In this document: one piece after another, positions 12,436 through 61,981 of the stretch
Numbering within the stretch: the stretch's first letter is position 1
Layout: each line of letters starts with the position of its first letter
NCBI GenBank assembly: GCA_947473475.1
Contig: CANJBZ010000012.1
Coordinates: 1 to 64,000 of the forward strand
Reading direction: 5' to 3'
DNA: 64,000 bases
Source: Alphaproteobacteria bacterium
Lineage (GTDB): Bacteria; Pseudomonadota; Alphaproteobacteria; Micropepsales; Micropepsaceae
The notes under the pieces: generated by a model
Database searches by the model: none
What the model was told of the DNA's origin: nothing
Seen by the model: the letters and a program-made list of their open reading frames with translations, nothing else
Program-made: the position numbers and the translations under genes

Positions 12436-12514
12436 GGAAACGGGGCCACAGAAGCGTTGCAAAACGAGGCGCGATGCTCGACAAACCGCGTCAGAGAAAA
12501 TCCAGTGAGGGCCG

Positions 12515-14044: not shown

Positions 14045-14064
14045 GCAGCCATGGGTGACGTCCT

Positions 14065-46947: not shown

Positions 46948-47688
46948 ATGAGCGGTAAAATTCACATCGGCATTGGCGGCTGGACCTTTGAGCCCTGGCG
47001 CGGCGTGTTCTATCCCGAGAAGCTGCCGCAGAAGCGCGAGCTGGAATATGCCAGCCGCAAGCTGACCTCCATCGAGATCAACGGCACCTATTATACCACC
47101 TTCAAGCCCGCGAGTTGGGCCAAATGGCGCGAGGAAACGCCGGATGGTTTCGTGTTTGCGGTGAAGGCATCGCGCTATTGCACGAACCGGCGCGAGCTGG
47201 CTGGGGCAGGGGAGGCGGTCGAGCGCTTCATCGGCCAGGGAATGAACGAGCTGAAGGACCGCCTGGGGCCGATCAATTGGCAATTCATGGGCACCAAGAA
47301 ATTCCAGCCGGAAGATTTCGAAGCGTTCCTGAAGCTGCTGCCGCGCGAACTGGCTGGTGCGCCGCTGCGCCACGCGCTGGAAGTGCGCAACGCGACGTTT
47401 AGGAGCGAGAAATTCTACGATCTGGCGCGCAAGTACAACGTGGCGATCATCTTCGCCGATGATGATGAATTTCCTGCCATCGAAGAACCGACCGCCGATT
47501 TCACCTATGCGCGGCTGATGCGCACCAAGGAAGACGTCGAGACGGGCTACACGCCCAAAGAGCTGGACGGCTGGGCCAAGCGCGCCTTGGATTGGGCCAA
47601 GCGCGGCGATGCATTCGTCTATTTCATCTCGGGCGCCAAGGTGCGTGCCCCCGCCGCCGCCGAAGCCCTCATTAGCCGCGTTGGATGA
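46948..47688 (+). CDS. DUF72-family protein
   Basis: The 246-aa protein opens IHIGIGGWTFEPWRGVFYP, the hallmark of DUF72, and continues with the TIM-barrel-like segments YYTTFKPASW and FVFAVKASR. C-terminally it contains a DAFVYFIS segment. The family (YecE-like) has no firmly established activity. The ATG at 46948 is preferred to a TTG two codons upstream. The following hydrolase gene starts 50 bp downstream. Confidence 0.88.
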   Translation: MSGKIHIGIGGWTFEPWRGVFYPEKLPQKRELEYASRKLTSIEINGTYYTTFKPASWAKWREETPDGFVFAVKASRYCTNRRELAGAGEAVERFIGQGMNELKDRLGPINWQFMGTKKFQPEDFEAFLKLLPRELAGAPLRHALEVRNATFRSEKFYDLARKYNVAIIFADDDEFPAIEEPTADFTYARLMRTKEDVETGYTPKELDGWAKRALDWAKRGDAFVYFISGAKVRAPAAAEALISRVG

Positions 47689-47737
47689 CGCGGGTACGCA
47701 GTCTATTCTCCTCGTCGTTTCTGCCGGAGTCGTAAGA

Positions 47738-48739
47738 ATGCGCCGTCTTGCCGTGCTGTTGTCCCTCGCATGCATCCTGTTCCAGACGACTCTCGTACGA
47801 GCCGCCGAGCCATACGGCATCGGCCTGGAAGGGTTCGCCTATCCGTATCCGGTGTCGATGCTGGCGGTGCCGACCGAAGGCGAGGCGCTGCGGCTGGCCT
47901 ATATGGATGTGAAGCCGACAGGGGCAGCGAACGGGCGCACTGTGCTATTGCTGCATGGGCGCAATTTCCCGTCGTCTTATTGGGAACCGACAATCAAGGT
48001 GCTGACCGCCGCGGGCTATCGCGTCGTCGTGCCCGATCAGATCGGATTTGGAAAATCGTCGAAGCCGCTGTTTGCGCTGTCGTTCGACATGCTGGCGCGA
48101 CACACCGCGCTGTTGCTGGATCATCTGAACCTGCCGAAAGTCGATGTTGTCGCGCATTCGCTGGGTGGCATGTTGGCGGTGCGCTTCTCGCGCGCGTACC
48201 CGGCGCGCGTGGATCGGCTGGTACTGGAAGCGCCCATTGGACTGGAGGACTACCGCAACTTCGCGCCACCGGTGGAAACCGAGCGCCTGCTGACCATCGA
48301 AGATGCGCTGACGGCGGACGGTTACCGGCAGCAATTGGTCACCAATTATTCGCTGACGCTGCCGCCGGAAGACATTACGCCGTTCATCGACGCGCGCATG
48401 CGCATCAAGGACGCCGCCGATTACCCGCGCTGGCTGCGCGCCTTCGTCAGCTCCTACCAGATGCTCTACAGCCAGCCGGTTGTGTACGAATATCCGCTGC
48501 TGACCCAGCCGGTTCTGTTCCTGATGGGCGCCAACGATCACAACGCCCCCGGCCGTCCGTTCGCGCCGGAAGCACTGCGGCCCAAAATGGGCGAGAACGC
48601 CAAGCTGGCCGGAGAGATTGCGGCAAAGATGAAGAACGCCAAGGTCGAGGTCTTCCCGGGCGTCGGCCATCTGGTCCATCTGGAAGCCAAGGACCGTTTC
48701 AACGCCTCCATGCTGTCATTCCTGAACGCACCGCGATAA
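47738..48739 (+). CDS. Secreted alpha/beta-hydrolase
   Basis: The 333-aa protein has a signal peptide (MRRLAVLLSLACILFQTTLV, cleaved after RAAE) and the alpha/beta-hydrolase fold: an oxyanion-hole segment LLHGRNFPSSYW, the nucleophile elbow AHSLGG (Ser), an acid in GANDHNAPG and His in GVGHLVH. It would hydrolyse an ester, amide or C-C bond in the periplasm. It lies 65 bp upstream of the first aromatic-acid transporter gene, suggesting release of an aromatic acid from an ester before uptake. That is inferred from context. Confidence 0.85.
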   Translation: MRRLAVLLSLACILFQTTLVRAAEPYGIGLEGFAYPYPVSMLAVPTEGEALRLAYMDVKPTGAANGRTVLLLHGRNFPSSYWEPTIKVLTAAGYRVVVPDQIGFGKSSKPLFALSFDMLARHTALLLDHLNLPKVDVVAHSLGGMLAVRFSRAYPARVDRLVLEAPIGLEDYRNFAPPVETERLLTIEDALTADGYRQQLVTNYSLTLPPEDITPFIDARMRIKDAADYPRWLRAFVSSYQMLYSQPVVYEYPLLTQPVLFLMGANDHNAPGRPFAPEALRPKMGENAKLAGEIAAKMKNAKVEVFPGVGHLVHLEAKDRFNASMLSFLNAPR

Positions 48740-48803: not shown

Positions 48804-50198
48804 ATGGATACCTCGCGCGCCCGCGACATCGACGTTGCCGAGCTTCTCGAAACGCGCTCGCTTGGGCGGTTTCAGTGGCTGACGCTGCTGTTCGGGTGTC
48901 TCATTCTGTTTGTCGATGGCTTGGACTTCAGCGCCATTAATGTGGGTGCCCCGGCCATCCTGCGCGCGTTCCATGCCGAGCGCAGCGCGATGGGTTTCGT
49001 GTTCAGCGCCGGCTTTGTCGGCATCCTCACCGGCAGCCTGTTGTTCGGCTATATCGGCGACAAATTTGGGCGCAAGGCCGGTGCGATTGCGGGTGTGCTT
49101 GCCTACAGCATCCCGGCGTTGCTGACGGTGTTTGCGACATCGCTCGACCAATTGGCGGTGTTTCGGTTTCTGTCAGGTCTAGGCATGGGCGGTGTGGTGC
49201 CCAACGTGATTGCGTTGCTGACGGAGACCGCGCCCAAGCCCTATCGCATCACCTTCGTGATGGTCGCCTATATGGGCTATTCGATGGGCAATGCGGTGAT
49301 CGCGCAAGTCGCGGCGTGGCTGATTCCATCGCTCGGCTGGACGGTGGTGTTCACCACCGCGGGCGCCGTGGGATTGGCGCTGGCGGTTGCGCTTGTTTTT
49401 CTCCTGCCGGAGTCGATTGCCTATCTCGCCGTCACCAAACCCGGATCGCCGGAGTTGCGGAAGCTCGTGCAACGCGCCGCGCCTGATGTGCGCATCGAAC
49501 CGGAAACGCGCCTGGTTTTGCGCCGTCCTGCCGCGCACGAAAAATTCTCGCTGAAGCTGCTCTTCACCGAAGAGCGGCGCATTGCGACGCCGCTTCTGTG
49601 GCTTGGGTTCTTTTCGGAATCGCTGGTCTACATGACGTTTTCGGCGTGGTTCTCGGTTGTGCTGGAACAGGCGGGTTTGCCGCCGACACAAGCGGCGCTC
49701 ACTTTCTCCATCGCCTATGTCGGCGCGATGGTCGCTATTCTCGGCCTTGCGCGCTTACTTGATGCGTTCGGACCGAAGGCCAGCATCATCACGGCGCTGG
49801 GCGCCATTGCGGCGTTTCTCGTGCTCGGCACGCCCGGACTCTCCGCAACCGCGATCATGGCGGCGGGCGTGTTGGCGATGTCGTGCTCGTCATCCACCCA
49901 TCAGGCGTTGAACGGCATTGTCGGCGGCTTCTATCCAACGGTCGTGCGCAGCAACGGCGTCGGCTATGCGTCGGGCATGGGACGGGCGGCCGCGATCATC
50001 GGCCCGGCCATCGCGGGCTATCTGCTGTCGGCGAATCTGCCGCTTCAAACCGTGCTCGCGGTGATGGTGTCGCCTTATCTGGTTGTCATCGCGGTTTGTC
50101 TCGCATTGAGCCGGCTCAAAACAAAAATGACGGCGAATGCCGCAGGTAACGAAACGCAGGTTCCGGGGAGAGAATGGTCGCCCGCGACATCGACATAG
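48804..50198 (+). CDS. MFS transporter, AAHS (aromatic acid:H+ symporter)-like, first of two
   Basis: The 464-aa protein has 12 membrane segments. Segment 1 contains ILFVDGLDFSAIN, matching the DG.D signature of PcaK-type 4-hydroxybenzoate and benzoate carriers; the loop motif GYIGDKFGRKAG and central LLPESIAYL are also typical. It probably imports an aromatic carboxylate with a proton. It shares clear similarity with the next gene, which starts 25 bp before this one ends, so a tandem duplication is likely. Confidence 0.88.
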   Translation: MDTSRARDIDVAELLETRSLGRFQWLTLLFGCLILFVDGLDFSAINVGAPAILRAFHAERSAMGFVFSAGFVGILTGSLLFGYIGDKFGRKAGAIAGVLAYSIPALLTVFATSLDQLAVFRFLSGLGMGGVVPNVIALLTETAPKPYRITFVMVAYMGYSMGNAVIAQVAAWLIPSLGWTVVFTTAGAVGLALAVALVFLLPESIAYLAVTKPGSPELRKLVQRAAPDVRIEPETRLVLRRPAAHEKFSLKLLFTEERRIATPLLWLGFFSESLVYMTFSAWFSVVLEQAGLPPTQAALTFSIAYVGAMVAILGLARLLDAFGPKASIITALGAIAAFLVLGTPGLSATAIMAAGVLAMSCSSSTHQALNGIVGGFYPTVVRSNGVGYASGMGRAAAIIGPAIAGYLLSANLPLQTVLAVMVSPYLVVIAVCLALSRLKTKMTANAAGNETQVPGREWSPATST

Positions 50199-51547
50199 GA
50201 CCGTTGCTCGAAAACCGGCGCATCGGCCGGTTTCAGGCGCTGACGCTCTCTTTGGGCGTGCTCACGCTTTTTGTCGATGGGTTCGACTATAGCTCAGTCA
50301 ATGTCGGCGCCTCCGCCATTGTCAGTTACTTCGGCGTCGAACGCAGCGCCATGGGATGGGTTTTCAGCATGGGCTATGTCGGCATTTTCGTCGGCACCGT
50401 GCTGTTCGGCATCATTGGCGACAAATTTGGGCGTCGGCCTGCGCTGATTGCAGGTGTGCTTGCCTATAGTCTCCCCGCGCTGGCGACAATGACGGCATCA
50501 TCGTTTCAAGACATCATTATGTGGCGCTTTCTCGCAGGGATAGGCATCGGCGGTGTCGTACCGAACGTTATCGCGCTGCTGACCGAAGCGGCGCCCAAAC
50601 GTCATCGCGTCACGTTTGTAATGGCAGCATTCGTTGGTTATTCGACCGGCAACGCCACCATTGCCCAAGTCGCTGCCTGGTTCATTCCGGCTTACGGCTG
50701 GCAGGTTGTGTTTCTTGTCGCGGGCGTCGCAGGCATGGTGTTCTCCATTGTGTTGGCGCTGTTTTTGCCGGAATCGGTTCCGTATCTCGCGGCGACAAAG
50801 CCGGATTCGCCGAAGTTTCGCGAACTCGTGCGGCGCGCCTTGCCGGAATTGGCGTTGACGCCTGACGACCGGGTGAGTTTGCACCGGCCCACGAGCGAAA
50901 CGCGCTTTTCTCTGCGTCTGTTATTTGAATCGTACCGCCGCATTGCGACGCCGCTTCTGTGGATCGCCTTCTTCGCGGAATCGCTGACGTTCATGACGTT
51001 CTCGTCGTGGCTTGCGCTGATCCTTGAATCGGCGGGCCTCTCGGCGCAGCAGGCGACGCTGGCGTTTTCCTATGCCTCGTTCGGCGCGATGATCGCGGTT
51101 TTCGTCCTGGGCCGGTCGATCGACTATTTCGGCCCCATGGCCAGTGTCGTGTCCGCCTCCTTTGCGGTTGCGATGATTATCTATCTCGGCTTTCCCGGCC
51201 TTTCGCCGGCGATGATCGTGGCCGTCGCCGTAGTGGGGCAGGCCGCGGCTTCCGCGACGCATCAATCGCTTAACGGTATTGTCGGCGCGTACTATCCGAC
51301 GATTATTCGCGGCAATGGCGTGGGCATTGCCACGGGCATGGGACGCGTTGCCGCAATCATCGGCCCAGGCGTTGTGGGGTATCTGATAGCCGCGAAAGTG
51401 CCGTTGCGGGAGGTTCTTATTTACATTGCCGCGCCTGATCTGGTTGTTGCCGCCGCTTGCGTCGGTCTGCACCTGTTGCGGCGCAACCCGGAGGCCAAAG
51501 CCGATTTCGAACGGCCGGCCGCGATTGCGAAAGAGCAAATGGCATGA
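50174..51547 (+). CDS. MFS transporter, AAHS-like, second of two
   Basis: The 457-aa protein is a paralog of the preceding carrier (ALLTEAAPK, THQSLNGIVG.YYPT, same DGFDYSS signature and GIIGDKFGRR loop). It overlaps the upstream gene by 25 bp, which implies translational coupling. Two related carriers back to back may handle two substrates or may form a heteromer; the sequence cannot tell. Its stop overlaps the next gene by 4 bp. Confidence 0.88.
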   Translation: MVARDIDIGPLLENRRIGRFQALTLSLGVLTLFVDGFDYSSVNVGASAIVSYFGVERSAMGWVFSMGYVGIFVGTVLFGIIGDKFGRRPALIAGVLAYSLPALATMTASSFQDIIMWRFLAGIGIGGVVPNVIALLTEAAPKRHRVTFVMAAFVGYSTGNATIAQVAAWFIPAYGWQVVFLVAGVAGMVFSIVLALFLPESVPYLAATKPDSPKFRELVRRALPELALTPDDRVSLHRPTSETRFSLRLLFESYRRIATPLLWIAFFAESLTFMTFSSWLALILESAGLSAQQATLAFSYASFGAMIAVFVLGRSIDYFGPMASVVSASFAVAMIIYLGFPGLSPAMIVAVAVVGQAAASATHQSLNGIVGAYYPTIIRGNGVGIATGMGRVAAIIGPGVVGYLIAAKVPLREVLIYIAAPDLVVAAACVGLHLLRRNPEAKADFERPAAIAKEQMA

Positions 51548-52101
51548 GTACAAAAATTCCTCGCCTCGAAATGGATCAGCTTGCGCCCAACGTGCAGGAA
51601 ACCCTGGCCGCGCGCGTGAAGCGGCTCGGTTATCTCGGCGAGTTCTTCAAATGCTCCGGGCACAATCCCGATGTGCTCGTCGAATTCATGGAAATGACGG
51701 AGGCGCTGAAGCATTCGCTACCCGACCGGTTGACCGAGGTGGGTTCGCTGACCGTGGCGGGGCTGATGGGCAACGCCTATGAGCGCAACCAGCATGAGCG
51801 CCTCAGCGAGAAGCTTGGCTTCGGGCGCGATTGGGTCGCCGCCGTTAACCGTCTTGAACCCGATGCCGCCGGGCCGCTGAGCGAAGACGAACGCGCGGTT
51901 CAACGGCTGGCGATTGCCGTCGTCGAGCGGCGCGGCCATGGCGTCGAAAAAGAACTGGACGCCGCGATAGAGCGCATCGGCTATGCCCAAGCCATGGCGG
52001 CGTTGTTTCTGATCGGCCGCTATGTCATGCACGCTTACGTGGTGAACGCGCTGAACCTGGCGCCACCGGTGCCATCGATCTTCGCCGGAGAAAAAGCGTG
52101 A
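51544..52101 (+). CDS. Carboxymuconolactone-decarboxylase (CMD)-like protein
   Basis: The 185-aa helical protein has a CMD/AhpD-like core: RLTEVGSLTVAGLMGNAYERNQHERLSEKLGF matches the E...Y-E-x-x-x-H pattern, but the usual Cys pair of AhpD is absent, so it is not a peroxidase-type member. CMD-family proteins without cysteines occur in aromatic catabolic clusters, sometimes as decarboxylases. It is coupled by 4-bp overlap to both the transporter and the next dehydrogenase gene. Confidence 0.7.
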   Translation: MSTKIPRLEMDQLAPNVQETLAARVKRLGYLGEFFKCSGHNPDVLVEFMEMTEALKHSLPDRLTEVGSLTVAGLMGNAYERNQHERLSEKLGFGRDWVAAVNRLEPDAAGPLSEDERAVQRLAIAVVERRGHGVEKELDAAIERIGYAQAMAALFLIGRYVMHAYVVNALNLAPPVPSIFAGEKA

Positions 52102-53087
52102 GCGATCCCCTCTGGATCACCGAGCAAGACGTCGTTGAGGTCATCAGCCTGCCCGAAGCGATTCCGGCTTTGGAGGCGGGGCTTGCGCTTGAAGCGGCGG
52201 GTTCGGCCCGCAACATGGAAAAGACCCATCAGATTTGGGGTGGGCACCACACGCTGCATGCCATCGGTGCGGTGGTGGAGGGCGCGCATGTCGTCGGCAC
52301 GAAAACCTGGGCGCATACCGCAGGCGGCGCGACCCCGCTGGTGACATTGTGGAACAGCGACACCGGCAAGCTGGAAGCGATCATTGAAGCGTTCGCCTTG
52401 GGCCAGATGCGCACGGGCGGCATTTCCGGCGTTGCGACGGGATGCATGGCCAAAGCCGATGCGGACGATCTCGCCATTATCGGCACCGGCAAGCAGTCGA
52501 TGACGCAGGTGGTGGCCGTCAACGCGGTGCGTCCGCTGAAGCGCATCCGCGTGTTCAGTCCCACCGCGGAAAACCGCCGCGCGTTTCTGGCGCGGCTGGA
52601 AAAGCTGTTTCCGACGGCCACGCTCGTGGAAGCGGCGTCCGTAGAAGAGGCCGTGAAAGACGCGCCGATCATCACGCTGGTCACGCGCGCGCGCACGCCG
52701 GTATTGACCGCGAGCATGATTGCGCGCGGGGCGCATCTAAATGCGGTTGGCGCGATTACGCCTGAACGCGAAGAATTCACGCAGGATGTGTTCGATCGCA
52801 TCTCCGTGATTGCCGTCGACATGGTCGAGTCGGTGAAATCGCTGAGCGCCGAATTCCGCAAACGCTTCGGCGATGGCGACTGGTCGCAAGTGCGGCCGCT
52901 GTCCGAGCTGGTCGCCGCGAAAGCCGAACGCCCGAAAGATGCTGACATAACGCTGTTTAAAGCCATGGGCATGGGACTTTCCGATCTCGCCCTTGGCATC
53001 GAAATATTGAAGCGCGTGCGCGCAAAAGGGCTTGGGCGAGCGATGCCGCATCCCAAGCCCGCGCAGCCGCGCCTTACCCAGTCATGA
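52098..53087 (+). CDS. Ornithine cyclodeaminase/mu-crystallin family NAD(P)-dependent enzyme
   Basis: The GTG start overlaps the previous stop by 4 bp (GTGA). The 329-aa protein has the family layout: an N-terminal substrate domain (THQIWGGHHTLHAIGAVV) and a Rossmann domain with DLAIIGTGKQS as dinucleotide loop. Members cyclise ornithine, or reduce ketimines or oxidise amino acids (alanine dehydrogenase of archaea). The neighbouring dioxygenase and aldolases make a role on a cyclic imine or amino acid derived from a heterocycle possible, but this is speculation from context. Confidence 0.83.
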   Translation: MSDPLWITEQDVVEVISLPEAIPALEAGLALEAAGSARNMEKTHQIWGGHHTLHAIGAVVEGAHVVGTKTWAHTAGGATPLVTLWNSDTGKLEAIIEAFALGQMRTGGISGVATGCMAKADADDLAIIGTGKQSMTQVVAVNAVRPLKRIRVFSPTAENRRAFLARLEKLFPTATLVEAASVEEAVKDAPIITLVTRARTPVLTASMIARGAHLNAVGAITPEREEFTQDVFDRISVIAVDMVESVKSLSAEFRKRFGDGDWSQVRPLSELVAAKAERPKDADITLFKAMGMGLSDLALGIEILKRVRAKGLGRAMPHPKPAQPRLTQS

Positions 53088-53102
53088 CATCAGGAGTGGA
53101 AG

Positions 53103-54185
53103 ATGAATAACTATTTCCGCGATCAGACGGGCCTGTCCCCCAAACCGCTCGATCTTTGGGAGCCGATCGTCATCCCGAAGGAAGTCATCGACGCCGAAAT
53201 CGACCGGCTGGCATCCTTGCCGCAACCGGCCAATGGACGCCGCCGTTCGGCCTTTGTGCATCCGCGCAATCAGAAATCTGAAGGCTTGGCGCCAGGCATC
53301 CAGGTGACGTTGGATGTGTTGAAACCCGGCGAACGCACCGTGGCGTTTCGTCAGAACTCGACGCAGGTGAATTTCGTCATTCAGGGCAAGGGTTCGTCTT
53401 TCGTCGGCGGCAAGCATGTCGATGTCGGGCTGTACGACGTGTGGAACACGCCGTCGATGCACCCCTATTGGCATCACAACACGGGCGATGAGCTGTTCGT
53501 GCGGCTGACCTATTCCAACGCCGCGCTGCTCGACATGATGAATGTTCACTATGCGGAGGAAAATCCCTCCCCGGTCGAAGCGGTGCCGCATGAAGAAATG
53601 TCAGAGGAGGACAAGAAGCGCCGCTCCAGCCCCTTCGGCACCTTCAAGCTGAACGACGAGGGCGCCTATTTGATGCCCTACGAAATCCTCATCAGTCCGC
53701 CGACGGTGCATTCGCCCGCGCTGCATTGGCCGTGGCAGGAGGTGAAGTCGCACTTGGATAAGCTCGAAGCGTTGGGCAAAGATTACGTCGGACGCCGCTT
53801 GTATCTGCTCTACAATCCGATGACCGGCCGCACGAATGGCACCACGCCGAACTTCTTCGCCACCATGACAATCCGCCCGCCAAAGATCGTGGATCGTCCG
53901 CACCGCCACACCTCAGCGGCGATCAACTATTACTTCCACGGCAGCGGGCGCTCCACGGTGGAAGGCAAAGTCTATCAGTGGAAAGCGGGCGATCTGATGC
54001 TGTCGGCGCCGGGATGGGCGGTACACAACCACGCCTCGTACGACGATTATGTCTATGAGTTGACGGTCCAGGATCAGCCGCTGAACATCGCGATGGAGAG
54101 CCTCTTGTGGCAGGAAAGCCTGAAGTTGCCGATGGCTGTGCTGGGCGTTCAGGAAGGCGTTGGCACCAATCGGGCGGCGGGCTGA
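53103..54185 (+). CDS. Bicupin dioxygenase, gentisate 1,2-dioxygenase-like
   Basis: The 360-aa protein starts 15 bp after its neighbour, with AGGAG upstream. It has two cupin domains: the first around HPYWHHNTGDELF, the second with RPHRHTSAAINYYFHG and later AVHNH. The second domain therefore keeps an HxH...H set expected to bind Fe(II). Gentisate dioxygenases and related salicylate or hydroxynaphthoate dioxygenases have this form and cleave the ring next to a carboxylate. It is the likely ring-opening step of the block 48804-55817. Exact substrate unknown. Confidence 0.78.
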   Translation: MNNYFRDQTGLSPKPLDLWEPIVIPKEVIDAEIDRLASLPQPANGRRRSAFVHPRNQKSEGLAPGIQVTLDVLKPGERTVAFRQNSTQVNFVIQGKGSSFVGGKHVDVGLYDVWNTPSMHPYWHHNTGDELFVRLTYSNAALLDMMNVHYAEENPSPVEAVPHEEMSEEDKKRRSSPFGTFKLNDEGAYLMPYEILISPPTVHSPALHWPWQEVKSHLDKLEALGKDYVGRRLYLLYNPMTGRTNGTTPNFFATMTIRPPKIVDRPHRHTSAAINYYFHGSGRSTVEGKVYQWKAGDLMLSAPGWAVHNHASYDDYVYELTVQDQPLNIAMESLLWQESLKLPMAVLGVQEGVGTNRAAG

Positions 54186-54186
54186 T

Positions 54187-55089
54187 ATGATCCGGCTCGA
54201 TGACAAGGCTCTGAAGGGCTCATTCCCTCCGGTCGTGACGCCGTTCAAAGAAGACGGCTCCGTCGATTACGACACCTATGCGAAACTCGTCGACTTTCAC
54301 GCCAAAGGCGGATCGGCCGGCGTCGTGGTTACCGGCACCACGGGCGAGCCGTCGGCGCTGACGACGGACGAGCGCATTCTGTTGGTAAAAGTGGCGATCG
54401 ACGCCGCTGCCAAGCGCATTCAGGTGGTTGCCGCGACGGGCACGCAGAATCACGCCGACACGGTGGTGATGACTGAAGCCGCCACACGCGCCGGCGCAGA
54501 TGCGCTCTTGATCGTGACGCCCTATTTCATCCGCCCGCCGCAGCGCGGGCTGGAAGCGTATTATCTGGATCTGTGCAAGCGCACCGATCTGCCGGTAATG
54601 ATTTATCACATTCCCGGTCGCGCGGCGGTGAACGTGACCGCCGAAACGGTGGTGCGTATCGCCGATGCTGCGCCAAATTTGGTTGGCATCAAACATGCGG
54701 TGAGCGAGCTGTCGCTGGTGTCCGATCTGATCGCGCGGCTCGGCACGGAATTCCGCATTCATGTCGGCCTGGAAGACTTGTCGTTCCCGATGGTGTGCCT
54801 TGGCGCGCACGGGCTGATGAATGCGGTCGGCAATCTCCTGCCCGGCAAGGTACAGGAGCTTTACGCGGTCACCGCCGCGGGCGATCTGAAACGCGGGCGC
54901 GCCTTGCATTATGAACTCTGGGAATTGAACCAGGCGATTTTCTTCGACACCAACCCGATACCGATGAAATACATGATGATGCGACTGGGCCTTTTGCCGA
55001 ACGAAGTTCACCGCTTGCCGATGGTTTCGACCACGCCGGAATTGCGCGCCAAGTGTGACGGCGTTCTGCAGCGCGCGGGGCTGATCTGA
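54187..55089 (+). CDS. DapA-family Schiff-base aldolase/hydratase (not a clear DHDPS)
   Basis: The 300-aa TIM-barrel protein has the family core TGTTGEPSAL, the Schiff-base Lys in VGIKHAVSE (normally GIKEA), and MIYHIPGR with the Tyr and Arg of the active site. The second Tyr of the catalytic triad (PYYNKP in true DHDPS) reads PYFIRP, a Tyr-to-Phe change. That, together with the catabolic context, argues against dihydrodipicolinate synthesis. Catabolic members cleave or add pyruvate (hydratase-aldolases, or N-acetylneuraminate lyase), which would suit a ring-cleavage product. Start at 54187, 2 bp after the dioxygenase stop. Confidence 0.82.
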   Translation: MIRLDDKALKGSFPPVVTPFKEDGSVDYDTYAKLVDFHAKGGSAGVVVTGTTGEPSALTTDERILLVKVAIDAAAKRIQVVAATGTQNHADTVVMTEAATRAGADALLIVTPYFIRPPQRGLEAYYLDLCKRTDLPVMIYHIPGRAAVNVTAETVVRIADAAPNLVGIKHAVSELSLVSDLIARLGTEFRIHVGLEDLSFPMVCLGAHGLMNAVGNLLPGKVQELYAVTAAGDLKRGRALHYELWELNQAIFFDTNPIPMKYMMMRLGLLPNEVHRLPMVSTTPELRAKCDGVLQRAGLI

Positions 55090-55817
55090 TGGATCGTGCT
55101 CTTGCCGACATCGATCCGGCGCTGATCGAAGACATGGTCGATGCCAATCATATTCTCTATCATTTGGGCGTCGTAGACGGCTTCGGTCATGTCAGCGCGC
55201 GCGATCCGAACGATCCCTCGCGCTTCATCATCTCGCGCAGCATGGCCCCCGCGCTGGTGGGGGCGGACGATCTGATGTCCATTCATCTGGACGGTCGTCC
55301 GGTGTCCGACAACGCGCCAACGGCGTATCTGGAACGCTTTATCCACGGCGAGATTTACCGCGCACGCCCCGATGTGGTGGCTGTGGTTCACAGCCATTCG
55401 GCGGCCGTGATTCCGTTCTGCATCGTGTCCACGGCGACGTTGAAACCCGTCTACCACATGAGCGGCTTCATCGGCGAAGGCGCCCCCGTTTTCGAAATCC
55501 GGGACACGGCCGGTTCGTCCAGTGACATGCTGGTCCGCAGTAATGAGTTAGGCGCCGCGCTGGCGCGTTCTTTGGGCGGCAACAATATCGTCTTGATGCG
55601 CGGCCACGGCTCGACGGTGATCGGCTTCAATCTCCGCCAAGCCGTCTATCGCGCCGTCTACGCCGAACTGAACGCCAAGCTGCAAGCCGAAGCCCTGCGG
55701 CTCGGTACGCCGAATTATCTAACGCTTGGCGAAGCGGTGGAATCGGCCAAAGCCAACGATGGCCAACAAAACCGCTCCTGGGAACTGTGGAAGCGCGAAG
55801 TTCGCGGCGAGCGCTAA
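55089..55817 (+). CDS. Class II aldolase/adducin-family protein
   Basis: The 242-aa protein has the class II aldolase domain: GHVSARDP, the metal pair HSHSAAVIPF, YHMSGFIGEGAPVFE and RGHGSTVIG with another His ligand. Family members include fuculose-phosphate aldolase, but also aromatic decarboxylases such as 3,4-dihydroxyphthalate decarboxylase and hydroxymethylpyridine dicarboxylate decarboxylase. In a cluster with aromatic-acid carriers and a cupin dioxygenase, a decarboxylase role is as likely as an aldolase role. Its ATG overlaps the preceding stop by one base (TGATG). Confidence 0.82.
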   Translation: MDRALADIDPALIEDMVDANHILYHLGVVDGFGHVSARDPNDPSRFIISRSMAPALVGADDLMSIHLDGRPVSDNAPTAYLERFIHGEIYRARPDVVAVVHSHSAAVIPFCIVSTATLKPVYHMSGFIGEGAPVFEIRDTAGSSSDMLVRSNELGAALARSLGGNNIVLMRGHGSTVIGFNLRQAVYRAVYAELNAKLQAEALRLGTPNYLTLGEAVESAKANDGQQNRSWELWKREVRGER

Positions 55818-55871: not shown

Positions 55872-57401
55872 GTGAAGTTACGAAATTACTTTCTCAGTTC
55901 TTTGCTTGTGCTCACCCTTGCCGGGCCGGCGCTTTCGCAAACCGGCGCAATATCCGCCGATCTCGTTCAAAAGACCTCACAGGCCAATTTCGCGGAATTT
56001 TTTGACCTGCTGTCGTTGCCGAATGATGCGGTGAACGCGCAGGACATTCAGAAAAATGCCGGGTGGCTGGAGACGGCGTTTCGCAAGCGTGGGTTTACGA
56101 CCAGGCAATTGCCAAATGACGGTAAGCCTCTTGTCTATGCGGAATTTACGCGCAAGGCGGCAAACGCAAAAACCGTTTTGTTCTACATCCATTTTGACGG
56201 ACAGCCCGTCGTTCCCGAGCAATGGGCGCAGAAGACGCCCTGGAATGCCGTCCTGAAACAGCGTGACGCCAAGGGCGCGTGGCATGACATCGACCGCAAT
56301 CAGCTGTTGAATGGGCGCATCGATCCGGAATGGCGTTTATTCGGGCGTTCGACGTCGGACGACAAAGGTCCGATTATGATGTTCTTGACGGCCTTCGATG
56401 TGCTGAAGGCAGCGAACCAAAATCCGGCGATCAATGTGAAGGTTCTTCTCGATAGTGAAGAAGAAAAAGGCTCACCGCAGATTGGCAAGGTTGCGCTGGC
56501 GAACCGCGATCTCCTGAAGTCCGATGCTATCGTCATCAATGACGGGCCGATGCATGAGAGCAACCGGCCAACGATTGTCTTTGGCAATCGCGGGGACACG
56601 CCTGTGCGGCTCACGGTCTATGGGCCCAAAAGCAATCTTCACAGCGGCCATTACGGCAATTACGCACCCAATCCCGCGCAGCTGCTTTCGGCGCTGCTCG
56701 CCAGCATGAAGGACGATGACGGCCGCGTGACCGTCGCTAGATATTATGACGGCGTCAAACTCAGCGACGACGACAGGAAGCTGCTTGCGGCGGTGCCGGA
56801 TGACGAAGAAGCGCTTGTGAAGCGGCTCGGCATTTCCAAACCGGAAAAAGTTGGTCGCAACTATCAGGAGGCGCTGCAATATCCCTCGCTTAACATCCGC
56901 GGTATGGCGGCGGCGTCCATCGGCGACAAGGTCGCTAACATCATCCCGGCCTTTGCGGTCGCCGAGCTCGATCTTCGCACCGTGCCGGGCGCCGACCCGG
57001 CCTACCTCACAGCGGCGCTCGAACGGCACATTCGCGGCAAAGGCTATTACCTCACCAAGGGCGAACCGACAGACGCCGAGCGCGCGAAATACGACAAGAT
57101 CGCCTCGCTGGTTCCTGGCGGTGGAAGCAAAGCGGCGATTGTCGCGCCAGATTCACCCGCCGGGAAATGGGCGCAGACCGCTTTGGCGGTTGGCGGAAAC
57201 GCCCAAAGCGTCGTGCGCATCCGCATGATGGGTGGAAGCGTACCGACGGACAAACTGGTCGATGCACTGCAAACGCCGTTTTTGCTGGTGCCCCTCGTGA
57301 ACAACGACAACAACCAACACAGTTTCGACGAGAATCTGCGCATCGGTCATTTCTTCGAGGGCACACGCGCGTTTGCAAACCTCGTCACCACGCCGTTTTA
57401 A
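55872..57401 (+). CDS. Periplasmic M20-family peptidase (full active site)
   Basis: The GTG start at 55872 has GAAGGAG upstream. The 509-aa protein has a signal peptide (MKLRNYFLSSLLVLTLAGPA, cleaved after LSQ). M20 motifs are complete: FYIHFDGQPV, FGRSTSDDKGPI and LLDSEEEKGSP, where the EE pair includes the catalytic base that is missing in the M20 protein at 33842-35254. A dimerisation domain with PVRLTVYGPKSNLHSGHYG follows, as in CNDP-type dipeptidases. It probably hydrolyses dipeptides or N-acyl amino acids. It ends the plus-strand run 47738-57401. Confidence 0.87.
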   Translation: MKLRNYFLSSLLVLTLAGPALSQTGAISADLVQKTSQANFAEFFDLLSLPNDAVNAQDIQKNAGWLETAFRKRGFTTRQLPNDGKPLVYAEFTRKAANAKTVLFYIHFDGQPVVPEQWAQKTPWNAVLKQRDAKGAWHDIDRNQLLNGRIDPEWRLFGRSTSDDKGPIMMFLTAFDVLKAANQNPAINVKVLLDSEEEKGSPQIGKVALANRDLLKSDAIVINDGPMHESNRPTIVFGNRGDTPVRLTVYGPKSNLHSGHYGNYAPNPAQLLSALLASMKDDDGRVTVARYYDGVKLSDDDRKLLAAVPDDEEALVKRLGISKPEKVGRNYQEALQYPSLNIRGMAAASIGDKVANIIPAFAVAELDLRTVPGADPAYLTAALERHIRGKGYYLTKGEPTDAERAKYDKIASLVPGGGSKAAIVAPDSPAGKWAQTALAVGGNAQSVVRIRMMGGSVPTDKLVDALQTPFLLVPLVNNDNNQHSFDENLRIGHFFEGTRAFANLVTTPF

Positions 57402-57557: not shown

Positions 57558-58673
57558 CTAGACGGTGGCGAGAGCCACGGTGTGTTCGGCGGCGAAGGTG
57601 AGTGTGACGGCGTCGCCTTTGGCGGCGGCGCCTGACAGCGTGCGCACGATGATTTCGTTGGCGCCGGCTTGGACCAGATATTCGACCATTTCGCCCAGAT
57701 AGATTTCGCGGATGACGTGCCCGGCCAAGCGGTTTGTGTTCGGATCGCGCTCTTCAACGCTGTTCACCTTGCGGATGGCGATGTGCTCCGGCCGTATTAC
57801 CAGCGCAACCTTGCTCTGCGCCGCCGCTGCGTTCGGGAAAAGGCACAGCAATTCGCCCATATCTGTTGCTACGGGGGAGATAGTTTCCGCCGCGGCATTC
57901 CTTGTCAGCGTGCCCCGTAGGAGGTTCGTGCGGCCGATGAAATTGGCGACAAATTCGGACGCCGGACGGCTGTAGATTTCCTTGGGCATGCCGAGCTGCA
58001 CGATGCGGCCTTCGTTCATTACCGCAATGCGGTCGGAGATCGCCAGCGCTTCGGCTTGATCGTGCGTCACGTAAACCGCAGTGACGCCGGTTTCCTGTTG
58101 CAGCCGTTTCAGCTCGACGCGCATCTGCTCGCGCAATTGCGCATCCAGATTCGACAAGGGTTCGTCCAGCAGCAAAAGCCGCGGCTCCCGCGTGAGCGCG
58201 CGTGCCAAGGCGAGGCGCTGCTGTTGGCCGCCGGACAATTGCGGCGCAGGACGTTTGGCGTAGGCATTGAGCCCGACAAGTTCGAGCGTGCGCATGACTT
58301 TGGTCTCGATCTCGCGCTCGCTGTGTTTGCGGCCCCGCGATACGCGAAGAGGATAGGCGGCGTTCTCGAACACGGTCATATGCGGCCAGATGGCGTAGGA
58401 CTGAAACACCATGCCGATGTTGCGATCGTACAGCGCGACATTCACGCCGGATTGCGAATTGAACATTTCCTGCCCGCCGATCGCGATGCGACCGGTATCG
58501 GGCGTCTCGAGCCCGGCGACCGCGCGCAGCGTCGTCGTCTTGCCGCAGCCGGACGGCCCCAGCAGCGTGAACAACTCGCCTTCGCGCAGCGTAAAGCTCG
58601 CGCCCAGCACGCCTCCGCCGGGCCTGCCGTCAAAGGCAGTATATTGTTTCTTCAGATTCTCGACGTGCAGCAA
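57558..58673 (-). CDS. ABC transporter ATP-binding protein (Fe3+/polyamine/thiamine import type)
   Basis: The 371-aa protein has Walker A GPSGCGKTT near residues 39-47, the signature LSGGQQQRLALARAL, Walker B LLLLDEPLSNLD and the H-loop VYVTHDQAEA, followed by a C-terminal TOBE domain. It groups by eye with the FbpC/PotA/CysA type of importer ATPases. A solute-binding protein gene is upstream (69-bp gap holding the 54-bp repeat), but no permease gene is present here, so the transporter is incomplete in this window. Confidence 0.9.
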   Translation of the reverse strand: MLHVENLKKQYTAFDGRPGGGVLGASFTLREGELFTLLGPSGCGKTTTLRAVAGLETPDTGRIAIGGQEMFNSQSGVNVALYDRNIGMVFQSYAIWPHMTVFENAAYPLRVSRGRKHSEREIETKVMRTLELVGLNAYAKRPAPQLSGGQQQRLALARALTREPRLLLLDEPLSNLDAQLREQMRVELKRLQQETGVTAVYVTHDQAEALAISDRIAVMNEGRIVQLGMPKEIYSRPASEFVANFIGRTNLLRGTLTRNAAAETISPVATDMGELLCLFPNAAAAQSKVALVIRPEHIAIRKVNSVEERDPNTNRLAGHVIREIYLGEMVEYLVQAGANEIIVRTLSGAAAKGDAVTLTFAAEHTVALATV

Positions 58674-58678
58674 GCGAA

Positions 58679-58732
58679 GCCCCCTCCACCATGCTTCGCA
58701 TGGTCCCCCTCCCCCGCTTCGCAGGGGAGGAT
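58679..58732. repeat. 54-bp dispersed repeat, copy 2 (double hairpin)
   Basis: Identical to 25049-25102. Here it lies in the gap between the solute-binding protein and ABC ATPase genes of one operon, where its hairpins could lower expression of the ATPase relative to the binding protein. Confidence 0.85.
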
Positions 58733-58742
58733 TATCATGCCA

Positions 58743-59813
58743 TTAGCGGAAGTATTTGTTGAAGAGCGCGGCGGCTTGGTCGCGCGATTGGAACATCAAT
58801 TCGGGCGTGAAAACAGTTTCTTTCATGCCGTTCAAGCGCGGTACGATCTTGCGCAAGGACGGATCGATGTCCACCTGCGGGTTTGGCGAAAGGTATTGGG
58901 CGGCCTTGAAAACTTCCTGGCCCTCTTTCGACAGCACGAAATCGATGAACAAAAGCGCGGCGTTCGGATGCGGCGCATTCTTCGCCAGTTGAATGGTGCT
59001 CAACGCCGACGGCACCGGATCAAGCATCTGCGTATCCAGTGGGGCGCCTTTGGCTTTGCTGATCAGCGGATGATGCGCGTAAATTTCCAGCGCCATTTTG
59101 TATTCGCCTTCGCCGACGCGGTCGACCAGGGCGCGCGCACTGCCCGCGTAATTCACAATGCGCTGGGCTGACAGACGCTTCAGATAGGCCTCACCTTTTT
59201 CCGGCCCCATTTCGCGCATGACGCCCGCGATGAATAGGAGCGCGCCGACTTCTGAATCCGCGCGCCAGGCAATCGCGCCTTTCCACTTCGGATCGAGCAG
59301 CGCCTCGTACGTCTTGGGCACGTCCGCCGCGCTGACTTGGCGCGTGTTAAAGGCCATGCCGAAATAATCCAGCCGCGAGGCGATCCACATACCGTTGGGG
59401 TCGATGTAATTGGCGGGGAAGCCGGCCGCCGAAGGCGAATAGAACGGCTCGGTCGCGCCCGCGCGGATAAGAGCCTGCGCCCCTCCAGTGGATTCCAGAA
59501 TATCGCCGATCACGCGGTTGGCGCGCTTTTCCGTCAGCGCCTTCTGCACGATGCCGCGCGAATCGCCACGCCAATATTCGACGGCGATGAACGGGTATTT
59601 TTTCTTGAAGGCGTCTGCCAAGGGCCGCAGCGCCTGATTTTCGATCATGCCGGAATAGAAGGCGACTTTGCCCTCGGTCTTCGCGCCCGCAAGGATGCGT
59701 TGGGCACGATCCGTTCCTTTGTACAAGGCGAGGCTCGCAGCTGGTGCGGCCAAAGCTGGAGCGGCCAGCGCGAATGCTGCCGACCCCAACGCCGCTTCGC
59801 GCCGCGTGATCAC
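58743..59813 (-). CDS. ABC extracellular solute-binding protein (class of Fe3+/2-aminoethylphosphonate binders)
   Basis: The 356-aa protein has an RR-containing signal (MITRREAALGSAAFALAAPA). The mature part is a periplasmic binding protein of the type-1 (Fe3+/AfuA) family: EGKVAFYSGMIENQALRPLADAFKKKYPF, DILESTGGAQAL, LDYFGMAFNT and LDPKWKGAIAW. Such proteins bind iron, phosphonates, thiamine or small organic acids. Its ATG overlaps the enolase-superfamily stop by 4 bp, so ligand and metabolic enzymes are probably matched. That favours an organic acid ligand here. Confidence 0.87.
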   Translation of the reverse strand: MITRREAALGSAAFALAAPALAAPAASLALYKGTDRAQRILAGAKTEGKVAFYSGMIENQALRPLADAFKKKYPFIAVEYWRGDSRGIVQKALTEKRANRVIGDILESTGGAQALIRAGATEPFYSPSAAGFPANYIDPNGMWIASRLDYFGMAFNTRQVSAADVPKTYEALLDPKWKGAIAWRADSEVGALLFIAGVMREMGPEKGEAYLKRLSAQRIVNYAGSARALVDRVGEGEYKMALEIYAHHPLISKAKGAPLDTQMLDPVPSALSTIQLAKNAPHPNAALLFIDFVLSKEGQEVFKAAQYLSPNPQVDIDPSLRKIVPRLNGMKETVFTPELMFQSRDQAAALFNKYFR

Positions 59814-60907
59814 GATTCCACCGCCTTCAACTGCCGCTCCTTGGTTTTCAAATGGACGCCTGAACCCGCACCGTCAGGCAATGCGAGGCAGCCATTCTCG
59901 ATTTCGATCCCCTCGAAGGGGTCGTCTAGCAGCCGCGCGAATTCGCCCAGTTCGCAGGCATAGTCCACGCCGGGCAAGCACGCCGCCATATGCATGGCGT
60001 GCGCCGACAGCAGCCGCGAACCGACGGCCGCGCCCATGCGGTAGCGGATATGGCCTGCCTCGCATATGCGGGCCGCGGCCAGCGTGTTGCGCAAGCCGCC
60101 AAGCTTGGGGATTTTCAAACTCACCGCATCGACCACGCGGTTCGCGACCAGATGCATGACATCCGCAACCGAGGCCGCACTTTCATCGGCTTCCACGGTG
60201 ACGGGCACCGATTCGGTGACCAGCTTCAGCCCGGCAAGGTCCCCGGCGGCGACGGGCTGCTCCACGAGATCGATGTCGAATTCCGCCATTCGGGTGATGG
60301 CCGCAATCGCGTCCTTCACCGAATAGGATTGATTGGCGTCAATGGTCAGATGCACCGCGTCGCCAACCTGCGCGCGGATGGCGCGCACGCGGGCGACGTC
60401 TTCCTTCATCTCGCCATGCACTTTGATCTTCAGATAGCGATAACCGGAGTCGGTCAGCTTCTGCGCCTGCGCCGCCATTTCTTCCGGCGCTTTAATGGCG
60501 AGAATGCGCAGGATCGGGACGCTGTCGCGCAGCTTGCCGCCGAACAATTGATGCAGCGGCACGCCCAGCAGACGCGCGTTCAGATCGTGCAAAGCGCAGT
60601 CGATTGCCGCTTTGGCTTGGTTGTTCGCCGCCAGGTCGCGGTCCAGCACCTGGAGAATTTCTTCCACAGCAAACGAATCACGCCCTTTCACCAGTGGCAC
60701 GAAGCGCGTCAGTGCCGCCAACAGACTATCGCGCGTGGCGCCCATGTGCGGCGTCGCGGAGCCGTAGCCAAAACCCTGCACACCGCTTTCCGCGGTTAGC
60801 GTCACGATAACGCCGTCCGTCACCGGACTGGCGCCGAGCGCAAAGCGCCACTTTGGGTCTTCTTTGCGCAAGGTGCAGGGCGAAAGCTCGGCGCCGGCAA
60901 TCAGCAT
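59810..60907 (-). CDS. Enolase-superfamily enzyme (mandelate racemase/muconate cycloisomerase-like)
   Basis: The 365-aa protein has the MLE/MR architecture: a capping N-terminal domain (residues 1-120) and a barrel with YLKIKVHG (K-x-K), metal-ligand segments LTIDANQSY (Asp), DLVEQPVAA (Glu) and VEADES (Glu/Asp), and VSLKIPKLGG with the second catalytic Lys. The two-lysine arrangement is that of the muconate-lactonising/dipeptide epimerase subgroup, not mandelate racemase. It probably cyclo-isomerises or epimerises a carboxylate. It is coupled to the binding-protein gene downstream. Confidence 0.87.
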   Translation of the reverse strand: MLIAGAELSPCTLRKEDPKWRFALGASPVTDGVIVTLTAESGVQGFGYGSATPHMGATRDSLLAALTRFVPLVKGRDSFAVEEILQVLDRDLAANNQAKAAIDCALHDLNARLLGVPLHQLFGGKLRDSVPILRILAIKAPEEMAAQAQKLTDSGYRYLKIKVHGEMKEDVARVRAIRAQVGDAVHLTIDANQSYSVKDAIAAITRMAEFDIDLVEQPVAAGDLAGLKLVTESVPVTVEADESAASVADVMHLVANRVVDAVSLKIPKLGGLRNTLAAARICEAGHIRYRMGAAVGSRLLSAHAMHMAACLPGVDYACELGEFARLLDDPFEGIEIENGCLALPDGAGSGVHLKTKERQLKAVES

Positions 60908-60931
60908 CGGGCAGGCCTTTGGGTAAGGGGC

Positions 60932-61981
60932 TTAGTTCAGGCCGTAAAGCGCGCGCGCGTTGGCGTCGAGGATGCGGTCGACAATCGCAGGCGCCACCTT
61001 TCCCTCCGTCTTCAGCAGCCTCAGCGCCTCGATTTGCGAGGAGGTATCGGCATGGCCGTAATCGGTGCCGATCACCAGATTGTCCTGGGCGCCGTGCCTG
61101 AGGATATACTCCAGGTCGTCCGTACACTGACAGGCGACATACATCCGGTTTTCCTTCAGCGGGTCGGCCGGGAATTTGCGGCCTTTGCGCTGATAGCGAA
61201 GCGCCAGATCGTTATAGACGTAAGGAATCCAGGCCGCGCTGACCTCGATAAAGGCCCAGCGGACCTTGGGAAACTTGTTCGGCAGATCGTCCATCAGGAT
61301 GTTGTGGAAGGCGCCGATCACTGGAAGCTTGGAGCGCGAGAAGCCGCCTTCGGTGGCGTAGATGTCGCGCACCTGGAAGCTGTTGTTGCCGGAGTGGAAG
61401 CAGATGGGCAGATCGAATTCCTGCGCCATCTCATACAGCTTGAAGAAGTAAGAATTGGTCAGTCGCATTTCGGCTTCCAGGCCGCGGATGAAAATGCCGC
61501 AGGCGCCGTTTTCCTTGCCGAATTTCAGCTCTTTCCGCGTCTCCTCCATCGAACGCAAAGGCGGCATCACCACCCAGCGCAGGCGTCCCTTGCTCTGCTG
61601 CCAGATGTCCGCCAGCCAGCGATTGTAGCTGCGGCAGAGCGCCACTTCGACGGTCGGATCTTGCGTCCAGGCGCGCAGGAAGACGGTGGGATAAAGTACC
61701 TGCACGTCGATATTCAGCGCGTCCATATGGTCGAGCCGCGCCTGCACGTCGCGCATCTCGCGGGACACGTCCGACGTATTGGAGCCGACATTGTGTTCCT
61801 TCGGCTGCAAGCGGCCGTCAATGATCCAGTATTCTTTTTGAATGCCGCCTTCGTTGCTGCGGGCGTGCTCGCCCTCGATCTGGCGCACCACGCGGGGGCG
61901 CAGATGGCGGTATTCCGGGTCGATGTAGTCGAAAGTCGTCATCGTTTCGATGACGTGTGCGTCAGCGTCGATACTTCCCAT
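60932..61981 (-). CDS. ACMSD-like metal-dependent amidohydrolase/decarboxylase
   Basis: The 349-aa protein begins IDADAHVIET, the variant metal motif D-x-H of the amidohydrolase_2 group, and includes PICFHSGNN, GAFHNILMDDLP and the late GTDYGHAD with the catalytic Asp. Members include 2-amino-3-carboxymuconate-6-semialdehyde decarboxylase, gamma-resorcylate decarboxylase and 5-carboxyvanillate decarboxylase, so non-oxidative decarboxylation is plausible. It is the first gene of the minus-strand run 61981-57558 with the MLE-like enzyme and the ABC genes. Confidence 0.85.
   Translation of the reverse strand: MGSIDADAHVIETMTTFDYIDPEYRHLRPRVVRQIEGEHARSNEGGIQKEYWIIDGRLQPKEHNVGSNTSDVSREMRDVQARLDHMDALNIDVQVLYPTVFLRAWTQDPTVEVALCRSYNRWLADIWQQSKGRLRWVVMPPLRSMEETRKELKFGKENGACGIFIRGLEAEMRLTNSYFFKLYEMAQEFDLPICFHSGNNSFQVRDIYATEGGFSRSKLPVIGAFHNILMDDLPNKFPKVRWAFIEVSAAWIPYVYNDLALRYQRKGRKFPADPLKENRMYVACQCTDDLEYILRHGAQDNLVIGTDYGHADTSSQIEALRLLKTEGKVAPAIVDRILDANARALYGLN

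Follow-up and report, generated by a model that had tools for sequence, protein, structure and literature searches.

The window analysed here, a 64,000-nucleotide stretch of an alphaproteobacterial contig, carries at positions 48804-55817 seven + strand genes encoding two transporters, a CMD-like protein, an ornithine cyclodeaminase (OCD)-family protein, a bicupin and two aldolase-type enzymes, raising the question of which ring they could degrade and what a cyclodeaminase-like enzyme would do in such a pathway. A sequence-only reading had described a coherent catabolic block, with genes joined by overlaps or gaps under 16 bp, and had seen in the cyclodeaminase-like gene a hint at a nitrogen-containing ring. 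All seven genes were located, each either overlapping its neighbour or separated from it by no more than 15 bp (ORF coordinates), and Pfam and NCBIfam profiles agree with the family calls for each of them except the CMD-like protein. We propose, at slightly less than an even chance, that these genes form an operon for the catabolism of an aromatic acid, following the general scheme given below. The coherence of the block, with its gentisate-dioxygenase-like bicupin, pyruvate-type DapA aldolase and class II enzyme (most likely a decarboxylase), is supported; the inference of a nitrogen ring is not.

Gene organization and the predicted iron site of the bicupin

The first two genes, MFS1 (48804..50198) and MFS2 (50174..51547), overlap by 25 bp and encode MFS transporters of the aromatic acid/H+ symporter type; TIGR00895 is still the top NCBIfam model for both, although their scores (296.8 and 276.0 bits) are below its curated cut-off of 418.55, and the first 1.2 kb of MFS1 share 68% DNA identity with MFS2. 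The CMD-like gene (51544..52101) starts at ATG 51544, in an ATGA overlap with MFS2, and overlaps by 4 bp the gene for an OCD/mu-crystallin-family oxidoreductase (52098..53087). After 15 bp comes the bicupin gene (53103..54185), followed, 1 bp further, by the gene of a DapA-family class I aldolase (54187..55089), which shares 1 bp with that of the class II aldolase-fold protein (55089..55817). The order CMD-OCD-bicupin-DapA is kept on a short contig of a congener with 77-83% identity, so this order is not due to chance.

The 17 best PDB matches of the bicupin model (Foldseek) were all gentisate or salicylate 1,2-dioxygenases. Like these enzymes, the protein has two cupin barrels, a 3-His iron site (predicted ligands H267, H269 and H308) and equivalents of SDO R83 and H162 (R231 and H310), the residues that hold the substrate carboxylate in place (PMC11264262, PMC10306065); all five positions are invariant in 47 aligned bicupin relatives. 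The 3-His iron site and the R83/H162 equivalents are those of bicupin-fold class III, and we predict that the protein is an Fe(II) dioxygenase of this class, cleaving a hydroxylated aromatic acid between C1 and C2. The iron of the salicylate/gentisate 1,2-dioxygenases, however, is bound in the N-terminal barrel, whereas that of the window's bicupin would sit in the C-terminal one: its HxH...HxH motif lies at 267-310 of 360 residues, compared with ~108-173 in C19 and C1, two classical GDO-like bicupins also encoded by the host, and 115-159 in a PhdI-like protein. In the tree, the clade of the window's bicupin stands apart from the gentisate/salicylate dioxygenases with 100% support, and the protein misses the cut-offs of the models for gentisate 1,2-dioxygenase (TIGR02272, 64.6 vs 442.1 bits) and for the 5-aminosalicylate 1,2-dioxygenase MabB (NF049978, 82.4 vs 650 bits). 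Profile matches pair the barrels crosswise, the C-barrel of the window's protein with the GDO N-barrel and the GDO C-barrel with its N-barrel. This would suit a pure domain-order swap, but sequential Foldseek alignments work too, so that the C-terminal iron site could equally reflect an ancestor with two sites, one of which was lost.

Four residues conserved in gentisate/salicylate 1,2-dioxygenases, Q108, R127, W172 and D174 (PMC11264262), are absent from the window's bicupin, which has T256, N275, E319 and T321 instead. Across the 47 relatives the changes of Arg127 to Asn (N275), Gly106 to Thr, Asp174 to Thr (T321) and Trp104 to Phe are invariant, the gentisate-recognising residues being substituted in 47/47. 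As R127 is essential for salicylate turnover by SDO (PMC10306065), the invariant Asn at this position makes salicylate itself a doubtful substrate, and we consider it unlikely that the ring is unsubstituted salicylate.

The OCD-family, CMD-fold and class II proteins

The OCD-family protein passes the Pfam OCD superfamily cut-off (142 vs 24 bits) and misses those of the curated OCD equivalogs (best 160 vs 417 bits). In its NAVGAI motif, I220 occupies the position of the catalytic Asp of cyclodeaminases (D228 in the P. putida enzyme), a position that is filled by Asp in the aligned AlaDH; the Ile is invariant in the window's protein and 30 relatives. The cofactor loop resembles the NADPH type. 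We thus predict, from these residue patterns, that the protein is an NADPH-dependent reductase and not a cyclodeaminase, which removes the basis for presuming a nitrogen ring.

The window's CMD-like protein has no family match of its own in Pfam/NCBIfam profile searches, and its orthologs score 21.3-21.6 bits against Pfam CMD, slightly below the cut-off of 23. Its predicted model has the AhpD/CMD fold (Foldseek TM 0.81 to Bmp8/AhpD-like proteins), Y79, E80, Q83, H84 and E85 are invariant in the alignment, and the CxxC of the AhpD peroxidase branch is absent; the protein is perhaps an isomerase or a decarboxylase.

The class II protein shares 44.9% identity over 225 residues with HMPDdc 2Z7B, a pyridine-dicarboxylate decarboxylase (PMC11841055), and its H101, H103 and H173 align with the metal-type His of that enzyme. 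No vitamin B6 degradation genes were recognised in the operon. The protein is most likely a decarboxylase, predicted to act on a hydroxyarene carboxylate as a feeder step; it misses the cut-off of the PhtC 3,4-dihydroxyphthalate decarboxylase model NF053537 (71.6 vs 200 bits). Its gene was seen near a bicupin in just three lineages (the window, L033 and L087), and homologs elsewhere adjoin phthalate-type genes. Pyruvic oxime dioxygenase, also of class II aldolase fold, was considered and rejected, as its structures match the class II protein only at E 2e-8, vs 4e-61 for 2Z7B.

A recurrent core with exchangeable feeders and tails

The CMD-OCD-bicupin set recurs as a core across Pseudomonadota and in further phyla; in relatives it is followed by DapA or by HpaH+HpaI, the latter often with a succinate-semialdehyde dehydrogenase (SSADH); in some relatives (e.g. 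Binatia L050-L053, L035, L084) the bicupin occurs without nearby OCD, CMD or recognised tail. The HpaH and HpaI neighbours score 354-454 and 386-399 bits against curated cut-offs of 351.5 and 368.8, respectively, and are found in both bicupin clades; an SSADH-like ALDH also occurs beside the bicupin in relatives. The substrates of HpaH and HpaI are the C7 compounds 2-oxoheptenedioate and 4-hydroxy-2-oxoheptanedioate. Across 59 loci, DapA occurs alone in 20, HpaI alone in 19 and both together in none (hypergeometric 5e-5, relatedness ignored), with at least five switches between the two tails on the bicupin tree, suggesting that DapA and HpaI probably do the same job in these loci.

The best-scoring model for the window's DapA-type protein is TIGR02313 (HpaI-NOT-DapA), yet with 278.4 bits against a cut-off of 396.7. 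With the lysine-biosynthesis model TIGR00674 (cut-off 206.15) it reaches 254.5 bits, and another host gene, a second, housekeeping DapA, scores higher (322.8 bits). Profile searches of the host genome found neither HpaH nor an HpaI equivalog, and an SSADH scoring above its cut-off. The Tyr, Arg and Lys of DHDPS are kept. DHDPS joins pyruvate and aspartate semialdehyde; its reaction reversed, minus the amino group, is the conversion of 4-hydroxy-2-oxoheptanedioate to pyruvate and succinate semialdehyde, which suits the predicted role of the window's protein as a 4-hydroxy-2-oxoheptanedioate-type (hydratase-)aldolase. With only ~20% identity to the known hydratase-aldolases NahE and PhdJ, the protein was placed outside their clade by identity and tree, which makes hydration by it uncertain.

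The feeders of the core vary among relatives, being salicylate-5-hydroxylase-like Rieske oxygenases or 4,5-dihydroxyphthalate-decarboxylase-like proteins. The HpaH/HpaI/SSADH neighbours, the Rieske oxygenases and the phthalate-type decarboxylases fit a carboxylated benzene ring, which further weakens the earlier inference of a nitrogen ring. An aminohydroxybenzoate or hydroxypyridine carboxylate, with the OCD-family enzyme reducing the alpha-imino acid from ring cleavage, would nevertheless agree with the imine reductases or deaminases that make up most OCD-family relatives, with the invariant basic residues K42, K69 and R105, suited to an imino or keto acid, with the pyridine-dicarboxylate substrate of 2Z7B and with the bicupin's weak match to the MabB model. 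We judge such a substrate quite improbable, because the C7 HpaH/HpaI tail of relatives has no room for nitrogen, the cyclodeaminase Asp is replaced by an invariant Ile, and the conserved core, as seen in the neighbourhoods of relatives, includes neither an amidase nor a deaminase nor a pyridine hydroxylase.

The Rieske oxygenases also bear on a gentisate-type variant, in which the ring substrate would be 5-hydroxylated and the bicupin product maleylpyruvate-like; the OCD-family enzyme would then reduce the 4-keto group ahead of a DapA/HpaI split, or a C=C ahead of a split by an FAH-type hydrolase. Relatives from the host's own family have, immediately after DapA, a Rieske oxygenase gene whose product has salicylate 5-hydroxylase 7c8z as best PDB match, FAH adjoins OCD-bicupin in 18 of 19 clade B loci (all 19 with a Rieske oxygenase), and DapA loci would need no hydratase. 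However, the 5-OH-binding Asp174 and Trp104 of SDO/GDO are the invariant Thr and Phe noted above, and 5NSDO, which shares their loss, does not use gentisate (PMC10306065); moreover, the HpaH accompanying HpaI elsewhere would be left without a role, and C19 and C1 already give the host two separate GDO-like bicupins. This variant is, in our opinion, rather unlikely. It is very improbable that the OCD-family enzyme acts before cleavage, as a dehydrogenase/reductase turning an oxygenase product (e.g. a cis-diol acid) into the bicupin substrate: Rieske oxygenase genes adjoin the core in many loci and clade B operons have no other evident diol dehydrogenase, but the OCD-bicupin pair is kept in many loci without a nearby Rieske oxygenase, including the window and most sphingomonads.

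Proposed pathway and known systems

From these observations we infer a scheme in which the aromatic acid would be imported by the two symporters and lose a carboxyl adjacent to a ring hydroxyl through the class II decarboxylase. The resulting ring, of 2-hydroxybenzoate type (salicylate-like), would be opened by the bicupin between C1, which bears the carboxyl, and C2, which bears the hydroxyl, giving a 2-oxohepta-3,5-dienedioate-type C7 compound, perhaps isomerised by the CMD-fold protein. As salicylate cleavage leaves one double bond too many for the C7 tail, we assign a single NADPH-dependent reduction, to the 2-hydroxyhepta-2,4-dienedioate / 2-oxoheptenedioate level, to the OCD-family enzyme, the core's only other oxidoreductase. 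The DapA-type enzyme would then hydrate the reduced compound and split it in a retro-aldol reaction into pyruvate and a C4 semialdehyde, e.g. succinate semialdehyde, to be oxidised by a semialdehyde dehydrogenase encoded outside the operon. Several points speak against the scheme: the Asn in place of R127, the fact that we know of no OCD-family enzyme that reduces C=C, the low identity of DapA to NahE and PhdJ, the relatives whose bicupin has no OCD, CMD or recognised tail nearby, and the few lineages with the class II gene near a bicupin. It is possible, if somewhat short of an even call, that the scheme represents an uncharacterised aerobic route of wide distribution. In it, a bicupin with second-barrel iron would open a mono-hydroxylated benzoate directly, an OCD-family enzyme would reduce an unsaturated keto acid instead of an imine and so feed a homoprotocatechuate-type tail, and DapA would act as hydratase and aldolase in one step.

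Several known systems share parts of this scheme. The core's relatives carry HpaH, HpaI, an SSADH-like ALDH and an HpaG-like FAH, as in the homoprotocatechuate lower pathway (HpaG/HpaH/HpaI, SSADH), for which the window has DapA in place of HpaH+HpaI; the extradiol HpaD of that pathway is absent from the core, where entry would be through the bicupin and the OCD-family protein. The lower route of phenanthrene degradation (1-hydroxy-2-naphthoate dioxygenase, trans-2'-carboxybenzalpyruvate hydratase-aldolase, ALDH) has the gene logic of the window. On plasmid pASPHE301 (Sphe3, L118), a bicupin gene, an overlapping DapA-family aldolase gene and an aldehyde dehydrogenase gene follow one another, presumably for opening hydroxynaphthoate and splitting it to pyruvate, an order that provides a precedent for our scheme. 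Unlike the window, the annotated stretch of pASPHE301 has no OCD or CMD, the iron motif of its bicupin is in the N-terminal barrel, and its DapA and the window's share only 21% identity. Riboflavin catabolism, with Rieske and retro-aldol steps in common, was set aside because it uses an extradiol dioxygenase (PMC12746152). In full-text searches of mainly open-access literature, we found no characterised pathway with bicupin, OCD and Rieske genes or with direct salicylate cleavage followed by HpaI/DapA, and no characterised gentisate or phthalate pathway containing this core; membership of relatives in such a gentisate or phthalate pathway was what the sequence-only reading had named as counting against it.

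If the proposed route is true, genes annotated as cupin protein, ornithine cyclodeaminase, hypothetical protein and DapA would form one widespread ring-cleavage module, to be re-annotated together; the reduction so far lacking for direct cleavage of salicylate-type rings would be supplied, the OCD family would gain a new reaction, and a bicupin active site would be shown to have relocated between barrels. The modular layout, with a fixed core, exchangeable feeders and two exchangeable tails, makes the substrate testable with few purified enzymes.

On the same strand, an alpha/beta hydrolase gene (47609-48739) lies 64 bp upstream of the block and an M20 peptidase gene (55872-57401) 54 bp downstream; given these short distances, the transcription unit may extend past the seven genes.

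The seven-gene block and its surroundings

The sequence-only reading had described a tight catabolic block of seven genes, which is borne out: the genes lie at 48804-55817 (+), adjacent ones overlapping or sitting ≤15 bp apart, and Pfam and NCBIfam matched two MFS carriers (nearest model, an aromatic acid/H+ symporter) and four enzymes of the OCD/mu-crystallin, two-cupin (bicupin), DHDPS (DapA-type) and class II aldolase-fold families. The seventh, CMD-like protein has no family match of its own in these databases; its orthologs reach 21.3-21.6 bits where the Pfam CMD cut-off is 23, and its predicted model (pLDDT 95) reaches a TM-score of 0.81 to AhpD/CMD-fold structures. Since it lacks CxxC, AhpD peroxidase chemistry is not expected.

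The intervals separating the block from the upstream alpha/beta hydrolase and downstream M20 peptidase genes showed no terminator-like site, and no promoter match was obtained; the transcription unit could extend beyond the seven genes. These flanking genes (47609-48739 and 55872-57401, both +) lie ≤64 bp away; their products both apparently carry signal peptides, as judged by eye, and may serve extracellular release of the aromatic acid. A first catabolic block (10579-17665, +) comprises genes for an HpaB-type hydroxylase, a UbiD decarboxylase and three xanthine-dehydrogenase-type subunits, the HpaB, UbiD and large-subunit genes being backed by Pfam; it does not correspond to the standard homoprotocatechuate route, because the host genome lacks HpaH. 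A divergent group (57558-61981, -) encodes an ABC transporter ATPase, a 2-aminoethylphosphonate-type binding protein, a mandelate racemase/muconate-lactonizing-family enzyme and an amidohydrolase_2 protein; genes of the ABC and enolase families likewise flank the bicupin loci L098 and L106.

Distribution of the core and its alternative tails

Among 84,980 species genomes scanned, 80 loci with bicupin relatives (46-78% identity) were recovered, in Sphingomonadales, Burkholderiales, Rhodospirillales, Binatota, Acidobacteriota, Actinomycetota, Bacteroidota and others. Neighbourhoods were counted in the 59 loci with sufficient flank, 40 from the near clade A and 19 from the far clade B; as loci were sampled through the bicupin, OCD and CMD counts hold for bicupin-bearing loci only. 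An OCD gene lies near the bicupin in 49/59, mostly as immediate neighbour, and a CMD gene in 24/40 clade A and 3/19 clade B loci. In a congener, CMD-OCD-bicupin-DapA is conserved at 77-83% identity; within the host's own order, the bicupin occurs in only 4 of 96 genomes and is thus accessory. Novosphingobium naphthalenivorans NBRC 102051 carries two differing CMD-OCD-bicupin-HpaH-HpaI-ALDH clusters (L041, L063) on separate branches of the bicupin tree. In several Burkholderiales loci, a divergent citrate synthase gene with an N-terminal HTH domain adjoins the bicupin (L076:8454-9704 (-), L079, L081, L115).

Sphingomonad loci are arranged CMD-OCD-bicupin-HpaH-HpaI, in most cases with an SSADH-like gene next in line, and HpaH and HpaI score above curated cut-offs in the clade A loci L039, L060 and L072 and in the clade B locus L096. 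DapA stands in place of HpaH-HpaI in the window and other loci: 20 of the 59 bear DapA, 19 HpaI, 20 neither and none both (P = 5e-5, relatedness ignored). The bicupin tree, which requires at least five switches of tail type, is the better argument for this alternation. The core-linked DapA proteins group apart from housekeeping DapA with moderate support (84/87), are distant from NahE/PhdJ, and retain the DHDPS Thr-Thr, Tyr, Tyr, Arg and Lys residues. Reversal of the DHDPS reaction on a deamino analogue, 4-hydroxy-2-oxoheptanedioate, gives pyruvate and succinate semialdehyde, which is the HpaI reaction. The host genome search returned no HpaH and no HpaI equivalog; a separate DapA gene and an SSADH above cut-off are present. 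The proposed reading as a ring-cleavage block with a pyruvate-releasing tail is upheld.

Predicted ring cleavage and the OCD-family protein

All of the top 17 PDB matches to the AlphaFold model of the bicupin (pLDDT 86) are gentisate or salicylate dioxygenases (GDO/SDO). Its predicted metal motif lies in the C-terminal barrel; the N-terminal barrel houses it in the host's classical paralogs (C19 and C1), in a PhdI-like protein, and in GDO/SDO (PMC10306065). R231 and H310 correspond to SDO R83 and H162; W104, G106, R127 and D174 of SDO are replaced by invariant F, T, N and T, and Q108 mostly by T. Given the published residue roles (PMC11264262, PMC10306065), recognition of gentisate's 5-hydroxyl would not be expected, and the missing R127 makes unsubstituted salicylate a less likely substrate; a more acidic phenol would be a plausible candidate.

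The OCD-like gene had been taken to point to a nitrogen-containing ring. On balance this does not hold: the cyclodeaminase/AlaDH Asp is Ile. Among solved structures, the protein is closest to pyrroline-carboxylate reductase and alanine dehydrogenase. K42, K69 and R105 are invariant. The second strand ends in Ser, with Arg downstream, where NADH-binding relatives have Asp, which suggests NADPH as cofactor. The protein is best read as a reductase. Relative to the HpaH substrate, the product of salicylate-type cleavage would be more oxidised by two electrons, so the OCD protein may supply the missing reduction, bringing the ring-cleavage product to the HpaH-substrate level.

Enzymes that may supply the ring substrate

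The core's neighbours differ between loci. A salicylate-5-hydroxylase-like Rieske oxygenase occurs in 19/19 clade B loci and, in two genomes belonging to the host's family, immediately 3' of DapA; relatives of 4,5-dihydroxyphthalate decarboxylase 9jp7 lie beside the core in 10/40 clade A loci; other neighbours are VanA-type oxygenases with a VanB-type reductase, and TauD-type oxygenases. In the window, the neighbour is the class II enzyme, which shares 45% identity with the Mn(II) decarboxylase HMPDdc 2Z7B (PMC11841055). Its homologs lie near phthalate-type genes in L114 and adjoin a 4,5-dihydroxyphthalate-decarboxylase-like gene in L163. Because of this similarity and these neighbours, it is best read as a decarboxylase producing the hydroxybenzoate. 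A class II paralog also occurs in the host at L131 (G000:C16:48000-58000), together with two bicupins, FAH and a 4,5-dihydroxyphthalate-decarboxylase-like gene, possibly a second ring-cleavage cluster.
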